This document shows positions 18,223 through 28,957 of a stretch of DNA of 34,846 nucleotides, in pieces. Origin of the DNA: Opitutaceae bacterium (GTDB taxonomy: Bacteria > Verrucomicrobiota > Verrucomicrobiia > Opitutales > Opitutaceae); the NCBI GenBank assembly GCA_025360455.1, contig JANYCF010000034.1, positions 1 to 34,846 on the forward strand. Direction: 5' to 3'. The translations under genes and the position numbers were made by a program. The notes under the pieces were generated by a model, which did not search any database, was not told the origin of the DNA, and saw only the letters and a program-made list of their open reading frames with translations. Every line of letters begins with the position of its first letter. Position 1 is the first letter of the stretch.

Positions 18223-19131
18223 TCAGCTCCCGCTGGCCATCCACTGGCCTTGCCCTTGTGACTGCGATTGTCCGGTGAATTTTTCGGCTACTTTCGTGAC
18301 CAAAACGTCGACTGTCATCTTCCTTCGATCGGTGCCGCGGTAGGTGCCTTTGAGCGGAGAAACGTCGGCGTAGTCGCGACCAGACGCGACTTTGACGTGA
18401 TGGCCTGCGACCGATTGCGCGTTGGTGGGATCGAGTCCGCACCAGCCGTGGCCGGGCACGTGTACTTCGACCCACGCGTGGCTGGCTTGCGCGCCTATGA
18501 GCTGATCGGCCGGACCGTTGTACAGATAGCCGCTGATATAGCGGGCGGGAATTTTAAGCGCGCGGCAATAGCCGAGCATGACATGCGCGAAATCCTGGCA
18601 GACACCGTGTTTCGCCTTAAGGACTTCGCGCATGTGCGTGTGCACATGAGTCGAGGCGGGCTGGTAATGAAATTCGCGATGGATGGTGTGCATGATGGCT
18701 TGCGCGACTTGCCAGACATCAGATTGGCCGCCGGCCGCCCCCAAGGCCAGACGCTCGGTTTCAGGCGTGATCTCCACATAAGTACTGGCCGGGATAAATT
18801 CATAACAGCCATCCAGCATCATGCTTTTGCTGAGATCGGTCATCGGGGCTGTCGCGGCCGTGGACAGGAGTGCGGGGGTGTCCGTGGTGGTCACCGTGGA
18901 CAGAGCGGAAACAACCAGTTCGAGATGGGGCGGATTGATCTCGAACAGATGGACGGTGTTGGAGTGGAAATCCAGGTAGTGGGAAATCTTGGGGTTCGGC
19001 GTGATCTGCAGTTTGAAGTCGTGCAGGGTCTGTCGGGAGTCGCCCGCCGGCTGGAGCCTCGCCTCATTGAAACTCTCCCGCACCGCGCTAGCGTACTCGT
19101 AGCGCGTGCGGTGGGATATATTTAATTTCAT
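18223..19131 (-). CDS. Transglutaminase-like family protein (TG-1)
   Basis: MKLNISHRTRYEYASAVRESFNEARL; catalytic-triad regions HGVCQDFAHVML, ASHAWVEVHVPGHGW, GLDPTN; start overlaps the upstream gene stop (ATGA). Confidence 0.93.
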   Translation of the reverse strand: MKLNISHRTRYEYASAVRESFNEARLQPAGDSRQTLHDFKLQITPNPKISHYLDFHSNTVHLFEINPPHLELVVSALSTVTTTDTPALLSTAATAPMTDLSKSMMLDGCYEFIPASTYVEITPETERLALGAAGGQSDVWQVAQAIMHTIHREFHYQPASTHVHTHMREVLKAKHGVCQDFAHVMLGYCRALKIPARYISGYLYNGPADQLIGAQASHAWVEVHVPGHGWCGLDPTNAQSVAGHHVKVASGRDYADVSPLKGTYRGTDRRKMTVDVLVTKVAEKFTGQSQSQGQGQWMASGS

Positions 19132-20174
19132 GGGGCGGAGGGAGCGGACGAACAGGCGCACTGTTGTTGCTGTTCCTCCTGTTGCCGCAGCTCGTAATCT
19201 TCGAGCGTGTGGAAAGGTTGGAAAATGTACGCTTGGAAAAGGGCGCCGCCGACGGAATTCAGCTTGGTCTGCAGCTGATCAATGTAGCCGTGGAAACCGT
19301 GGTCAAAGACATCGGAGACGGAGCTGAAACTTAATTCGGCGAGCAGGCGGCCCGCGTGTTTTTCGGCGTCGTTGCCGAAGCTGTTGCCGGCCACACCGGA
19401 GATGCGGCGCAGGGCGGCGTCGGTGGCGGCGACGCAGAAACGGACGGAGCGGGGGAAGTCTTCTGAGAGGAGAAGGAAATCGGCCACGAGCGCCGGTTGG
19501 ACCTCCGCGCCATGGCGGGCTTTATAGGCATCCCACGCACTGCAGGAGCGGAGCACCGCAGACCAGCCGAGGACATCCTCTTGGCTGGCGGCAGCGGGGG
19601 CGCCGCGCTCGGGGACGGAGGCGTGACGGACGTCGAGGATGCGCGACGTTTTGTCGGCGCGTTCCAGAAAGCAGCCGGCTTGCATGAAATTCCAGCCTTC
19701 GTTGCGCACGACCGTGGAGTTGGCGAGGCCTTGGAGCAGCAGGGAGCTGTTCTTAACTTCCTGGAAAAATTCGTGAGGACTGGAGCGCCAGATGGTGCGT
19801 GCGCGGGATGAGTGCACATGCAGATAAAGCCGGTTTAGCTCCTCCCAGAATTCGCTGGTGAGCTGATCGCGCACCATGCGGGCATTTTCCCGTGCCTGGG
19901 CGATGGAGGAAACGATGGAGTTGGGATTCTCCGATTGGAGGACGAGAAACTCTGTCACGTTGTCGCCGGTGGCGCGTTCATGGAGCGATTTGAACATCTC
20001 CTCGTCGCCGGTGCTTTCGAGAATGGGCATCCAGTGGGCGGCAAGCGCTTCATCGTCGATGCGGCGATAATCAAGGAGGAGCTGGAGATTCACATCGACG
20101 AGTCGCGCGGTGTTATCGGCGCGCTCGATGTAGCGACTCATCCAGTAGAGGGAATTGGCGACGCGACTCAGCAT
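19128..20174 (-). CDS. Alpha-E domain-containing protein
   Basis: MLSRVANSLYWMSRYIERADNTARLVDVNLQLLLDY...FLERADKTSRILDVRH. Confidence 0.92.
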   Translation of the reverse strand: MLSRVANSLYWMSRYIERADNTARLVDVNLQLLLDYRRIDDEALAAHWMPILESTGDEEMFKSLHERATGDNVTEFLVLQSENPNSIVSSIAQARENARMVRDQLTSEFWEELNRLYLHVHSSRARTIWRSSPHEFFQEVKNSSLLLQGLANSTVVRNEGWNFMQAGCFLERADKTSRILDVRHASVPERGAPAAASQEDVLGWSAVLRSCSAWDAYKARHGAEVQPALVADFLLLSEDFPRSVRFCVAATDAALRRISGVAGNSFGNDAEKHAGRLLAELSFSSVSDVFDHGFHGYIDQLQTKLNSVGGALFQAYIFQPFHTLEDYELRQQEEQQQQCACSSAPSAP

Positions 20175-28500: not shown

Positions 28501-28957
28501 TGATGCGACTGTTCAGCGCGACCAGATAGTCGATGGTGCGTTGCGGCTTGAGGTCGAGCGAGGCGACGAGCTCCGCGAATTTCGGTTTGCGGGCGTGTTT
28601 GCGCAGGAACGGCGAGAGTTCGGTCGCGAGCTTTTTGTCGTAGGTGAAAGGATAATTCTCGGCGTACGGTTCGAGAAAAAAATCAAAGGGATTGTAGACG
28701 GACATCTCCGCCACCAAGTCCACGGTTACGGAGAAGCGTTGGGTTTTTTTCTCGACAACCAGGCGGGCGAGATAGTTGGAGTGCGGGTCTTGTTGCCAGT
28801 TGAGGAAATTGTCCGCCGGCTCGATTTTGAGCGAGTAGCTTAGGATCGGCGTCCGGCAATGCGGGGCTGGGCGCAACCGGATGACCTGCGGCCCGAGGGC
28901 GACGAGGCGATCATAAGTGTAGGAAGTCTGGTGGTGCAGTGCGGCGTGAATGGCCAT
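25574..28957 (-). CDS. Large transglutaminase-like protein with C-terminal DUF2126-type region (TG-3)
   Basis: [38 protein letters not shown]...[30 protein letters not shown]...[23 protein letters not shown]; long C-terminal part with [15 protein letters not shown]. Start trimmed to the ATG at 28957. Confidence 0.9.
   Translation of the reverse strand: [1127 protein letters not shown]

Follow-up and report, generated by a model that had tools for sequence, protein, structure and literature searches.

Described operons and the composition of the locus

Circularly permuted (CP) ATP-grasp, alpha-E and transglutaminase-like (TG) proteins are known from operons with the peptidase Anbu, and a function in peptide synthesis or tagging was predicted for these ATP-grasp/alpha-E/TG/Anbu operons. 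The prediction is attributed to Iyer et al. (2009) in PMC6376114 and PMC5666114, and the sequence-only reading of the DNA described here was right to cite it. Phosphate release from ATP has been shown for the ATP-grasp protein encoded by the Anbu operon in Y. bercovieri (PMC6376114). No ligase activity or product was found reported for family members in the literature consulted. A similar logic is represented by glutathionylspermidine synthetase/amidase, which joins an ATP-dependent amide ligase to a cysteine amidase. The four-gene Anbu operon of Y. bercovieri, P. aeruginosa and Hyphomicrobium shares the CP ATP-grasp, alpha-E and TG families with module 1 of the present locus, and this module is also homologous to a Paracoccus operon that contains Anbu. 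The block, however, lacks Anbu and contains, joined to module 1, a further module that includes DUF2126 and a fused ATP-grasp/alpha-E protein. Split and fused modules occur together in Tsukamurella, as they do in the block, but there they lie at separate loci on separate records and no DUF2126 gene is found near the fused locus. A comparable pair of loci in M. tuberculosis is formed by Rv2409c-2411c and Rv2566-2569c. The genes of both modules adjoin in five- or six-gene loci of Caballeronia (L122), Halioglobus (L104) and Desulfuromusa (L103). Such gene sets are present in several bacterial phyla.

The window, i.e. the whole analysed stretch of 34,846 nucleotides, contains a block of six intact frames, all on the minus strand, at 18223-28957. 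Module 1 consists of the fixed partners AG_s (stand-alone CP ATP-grasp, 20331..21821), AE_s (stand-alone alpha-E, 19128..20174) and TG1 (18223..19131, with the frame open to 19161), and module 2 of TG3-DUF2126 (25574..28957), the fused AG_f-AE_f (22882..25344) and TG2 (21985..22866). Every domain assignment of the sequence-only reading was borne out by Pfam, including two CP ATP-grasps, two alpha-Es and the split-plus-fused architecture. CP_ATPgrasp_2 (PF14403) was identified in AG_s (E 7e-165) and in the fused protein (5e-133), and Alpha-E (PF04168) in AE_s (1e-96) and in the fused protein (9e-51). Bact_transglu_N and Transglut_core were found in 18223-19161, in TG2 and in the frame 25574-29185, the last of which also contains DUF2126 (PF09899, E = 0). 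None of the six proteins is covered by a named NCBIfam model. In the genome to which the window belongs, alpha-E and ATP-grasp were each matched twice and DUF2126 once, always inside the window, and the searches of this genome revealed no further copies of the block families.

The translation start of TG3-DUF2126 is most likely the ATG at 28957 and not 29185, because the nearest relative (L083) begins with an identical MAIHAALHH and the named homologues begin nearby; nearly all of the latter align with the longer frame from about residue 77 onwards. TG1 probably starts with the ATG at 19131, which gives a four-base overlap (ATGA) with the alpha-E stop codon, and TG2 begins 15 bp after the fused gene. 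The named homologues, at 72-82% identity, belong to Verrucomicrobia subdivision 3, Pedosphaera and Limisphaerales, a group in which the window very probably has its origin. A hydrophobic signal-like stretch is absent from all six N-termini on visual inspection.

The dN/dS values calculated against the closest relatives were 0.14 for TG3-DUF2126, 0.16 for the fused gene, 0.11 for TG2, 0.10 for the ATP-grasp, 0.13 for alpha-E and 0.28 for TG1. By this measure all six genes are under purifying selection and the block is not decaying; the possibility of a pseudogenised block, raised in the earlier reading, does not apply. The Cys, His and Asp regions noticed in that reading correspond to triads at Cys 188/186/201, His 228/229/250 and Asp 244/245/266 of TG1/TG2/TG3 (numbering of the extracted domains), and the three residues are kept at ≥90% in all three proteins among 112 homologues. 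Two ER pairs are preserved in both alpha-E domains (E17-R18 and E171-R172 in AE_s). About 35 columns are common to the split and fused ATP-grasps, but many charged residues that are conserved in the split form, for example R184, H254, D338, D339, E391 and H446 (AG_s numbering), are lost in the fused one. Both forms may therefore bind ATP, and this loss of charged residues suggests that they probably differ in substrate.

A proposed two-stage ligase and the place of Anbu

The block very probably represents a ligase system of the predicted CP ATP-grasp/alpha-E/TG kind. On sequence grounds it is a well-formed member of this amide-ligase kind, whose two-module, Anbu-free organisation is informative. 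The reading preferred here, by somewhat better than an even chance, is a cytosolic two-stage amide (peptide) ligase system that operates without Anbu and may be linked to nitrogen limitation. Module 1 would use ATP to convert a carboxylate into an acyl phosphate, which would then be coupled to an amine of a substrate that alpha-E presents. Module 2, composed of a predicted glutamine-synthetase-like DUF2126 ligase joined to TG3, a second ATP-grasp/alpha-E pair and TG2, would act on the product of module 1, so that a second amide bond would be added or modified. The TG-like cysteine enzymes may transfer or cut amide linkages and could replace Anbu in its proposed reversing role, and when nitrogen is limiting the whole system may function in the storage or recycling of nitrogen or in the use of amines. 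It is rather probable that both modules act in one pathway, and the order in which module 1 precedes module 2 is put forward tentatively. A narrower form of this proposal, a conjugation-deconjugation cycle in which the product of module 1 would be the obligate substrate of module 2, the TG-like enzymes would reverse the reaction without Anbu, and the repeated joining of the modules would mark one pathway leading to a peptide or amide metabolite, is considered rather unlikely.

The closest solved structure of the ATP-grasps is PDB 3n6x, matched by AG_s at 1.8e-174 and by the ATP-grasp of the fused protein at 1e-71. The AlphaFold2 model of AE_s is confident (pLDDT 88.9) and entirely helical, and a fold search with it gave no PDB match at E <= 0.001. 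The DUF2126 model reached modest confidence (pLDDT 63), and glutamine synthetases made up almost all of its 50 best PDB matches (best Foldseek E 0.009, probability up to 0.98). When the DUF2126 profile was compared with those of three glutamine synthetases, no signal was obtained (hhalign probability 0.1%), and the glutamine synthetase catalytic domain PF00120 had no Pfam match in the six proteins. Iyer and colleagues reportedly predicted DUF2126 to be a glutamine-synthetase-like ligase, and the resemblance suggested by the model agrees with this prediction.

No match to the proteasome-fold family PF00227 was detected in the genome of the window or in 56 relatives from its order. An Anbu query, built as an alignment of two annotated peptidases that lie beside such operons and both match PF00227, likewise found Anbu in 0 of the 57 genomes. 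The assembly itself is 92.9% complete, but the peptidase is likewise missing from 45 good genomes of the order. The Anbu partner that the sequence-only reading had envisaged was thus missing. The same query recovered Anbu in 4 of 115 sampled genomes of the phylum, and only in genomes with alpha-E (4/26 versus 0/89 without it, p 0.002, uncorrected for shared descent). Since all four of these genes occur in alpha-E genomes, Anbu appears to depend on the ligase module in this phylum, and not vice versa. The repeated joining of the modules, the constant presence of module 1 wherever module 2 occurs and the Anbu-free order decouple the ligase chemistry from the Anbu question.

The association of Anbu with alpha-E, along with the prediction cited above, is in favour of protein tagging, in which the ligases would build or attach a peptide tag and the TG-like enzymes would remove it, as proposed for Anbu operons. 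Such a function is nevertheless unlikely here, because the order lacks a proteasome-fold peptidase, the block has no AAA partner and is not accompanied by any small, conserved tag-like gene, the gaps between module genes in relatives being mostly a few to about 100 bp. As regards pupylation, Pfam revealed no PafA-type domain in the block and PF00227 is missing from the genome. The PF15887 zinc metallopeptidase was considered as a substitute for Anbu and rejected as not general, as it exceeds the cut-off in only 6 of the 57 genomes and falls below it in the genome of the window. In Caballeronia such a gene lies between the modules. The four genomes with strong PF15887 matches all contain DUF2126, and at G056:C156:15025-15753 (L125) the metallopeptidase gene adjoins a short-type DUF2126 gene.

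Amine assimilation, in which polyamines or other amines would be glutamylated for nitrogen use or storage and the amide would be cleaved by the TG-like enzymes, draws on the analogy with glutathionylspermidine synthetase/amidase and with the pathway of the glutamine-synthetase-like PuuA, on the DUF2126 model and on the deposition of 3n6x as a putative glutathionylspermidine synthase. It is also consistent with the behaviour of such clusters under nitrogen limitation. In B. cenocepacia, TG-like clusters of this type are NtrC/sigma54-dependent under nitrogen limitation, and one with DUF404/407, DUF403 and two TG-like genes was down 6 to 9.4-fold in an ntrC mutant (PMC5491218). In nitrogen-limited P. 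putida a TG-like cluster was up 6.6-11-fold (PMC3325844), and in metagenomes these domains are associated with urea metabolism (PMC3597751). However, the name that 3n6x carries was assigned by similarity, Pfam found neither GSP_synth nor CHAP in the six proteins, whose cysteine enzymes belong to another family, and the genes conserved next to the block include no amine transporter, oxidase or aminotransferase. Amine assimilation is therefore judged improbable as the function of the block. The sigma-54-like sites showed no excess in the window, with fewer matches than in shuffles, and no nitrogen-control promoter was recognised here. A role in nitrogen limitation in this organism, as included in the preferred two-stage reading, is conceivable and somewhat doubtful.

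Arrangement and origin of the two modules

The site between lnt-secA and epimerase-tgt contains module 1 alone in the sister genomes G003, G005, G006, G012 and G027, which makes these sister species suited to clean genetic tests. In G017, module 1 adjoins secA and module 2 lies elsewhere in the chromosome. In G001 and G007 module 2 is a divergently oriented neighbour of module 1, and the same holds for G010 as far as its short contig shows. In the window it occupies the same place as in G001 and G007 but is inverted, and the six genes are co-directional. The gene order of Desulfuromusa is that of the window. A nested order, AG_s AE_s (TG3-DUF2126 AG_f-AE_f TG2) TG1, with genes often overlapping, characterizes 15 other Verrucomicrobia loci, in addition to partial ones. 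Further arrangements are AG_s AE_s TGD AG_f TG2 in Halioglobus and two genomes of the order, TGD AG_s AE_s AG_f TG2 in G020, and AG_s AE_s followed by an opposite-strand zinc metallopeptidase gene and then TGD and AG_f in Caballeronia SL2Y3. The modules are far apart in G017 and G025, DUF2126 stands away from the other genes in G031, and at L083 module 2 has no module 1 nearby.

Among the 57 genomes, long DUF2126 is accompanied by the split module in 13 of 13 (p 1e-4) and by fused type A in 12 of 13 (p 2e-10), both values being uncorrected for shared descent, and the split module occurs alone in 9. The more distant fused type B accompanies short DUF2126 type B in 7 of 10 genomes (p 1.5e-5). 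This one-way dependence of module 2 on module 1 is the pattern expected of a downstream step. The steps had previously been described as possibly sequential, and such sequential action gains circumstantial support from the one-way dependence. The genomes with module 1 alone, together with the separate positions of module 2 in G017 and G025 and at L083, would also fit two independent pathways that share a locus, module 2 being a variable cassette that lands by module 1. This explanation has little likelihood in view of the strong co-occurrence, which includes separate loci, and of the joining of the same two modules in different arrangements, one of them nested.

A common partner gene was not found among the recurring neighbours of the block in relatives. 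As candidates for a substrate or peptidase function, secA, the epimerase, tgt, phosphofructokinase, PPi-dependent PEPCK, DNA glycosylase, GDSL lipase, kinase and transporter genes were rejected, none being common. A PPi-dependent PEPCK gene is located between alpha-E and TG3-DUF2126 at L105:6570-9998 and L090:6575-10000, and just upstream of TG3-DUF2126 at L098:6201-9647; these genes match PDB 6k31 and 8e1u, and no Pfam or NCBIfam model names them. In other relatives (L113:8594-9988, L087:8470-9861, L097:2294-3706 and L108:5120-6622) the gene inserted between alpha-E and TG3-DUF2126 encodes a phosphofructokinase. This site therefore repeatedly acquires glycolytic genes. The fused ATP-grasp is in pieces in Caballeronia Lep1P3 (L118:12955-15267) and TG2 is in two frames on an Azospirillum plasmid (L116:18446-19425), which suggests that loss of module 2 is possible.

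The tree computed from 72 ATP-grasp domains places split and type-A fused forms apart, and each group mixes Verrucomicrobiota with Desulfuromusa, Halioglobus, Tsukamurella and alphaproteobacterial sequences. The alpha-E tree is cleanly divided into fused and stand-alone domains (one change, support 99). In the TG tree, TG2 and TG3 each form a single clade, and TG1 is separate with two changes. The trees were quick and contain some long branches; the deep separation is robust and the fine order is not. According to these trees, the separation of the two modules predates the divergence of the sampled phyla, and the block unites two ancient paralogous modules whose joining was secondary and took several forms. 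That one module was recently duplicated in place and then fused, as the identical domain set present twice could suggest and as the earlier description of the block as duplicated implied, is highly improbable, because the split ATP-grasps group apart from the fused ones, the alpha-Es do likewise, and each of these clades spans several phyla.

Intergenic regions and repeats

The block is separated from the divergent secA by 28958..29232, the presumed promoter region, in which no sigma-70-like site was found; Rfam gave no match in the window. The intergenic gaps of 163 and 229 bp within the block and the inverted repeats count against assuming a single transcript. A perfect 26-bp inverted repeat at 21887..21956, between TG2 of module 2 and AG_s of module 1, could separate the expression of the modules; a related copy is present at 8307-8332. 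The gap between TG3-DUF2126 and the fused gene contains an inverted pair of REP elements (25475..25552). The REP family (GTAGGAGCCTGTTTACAGGCGAC, mostly inverted pairs) has 145 matches in the genome at ≤2 mismatches, compared with 0 for the reversed control, and its elements are also present in the window at 3995-4017, 11639-11714 and 32364-33066. An open frame at 17712-18158, which adjoins TG1 between the block and the epimerase gene, is fragment-like and weakly matches a Y1 transposase. REP pairs flank, on either side, an intact gene for a REP-associated tyrosine transposase at 32460-32978.
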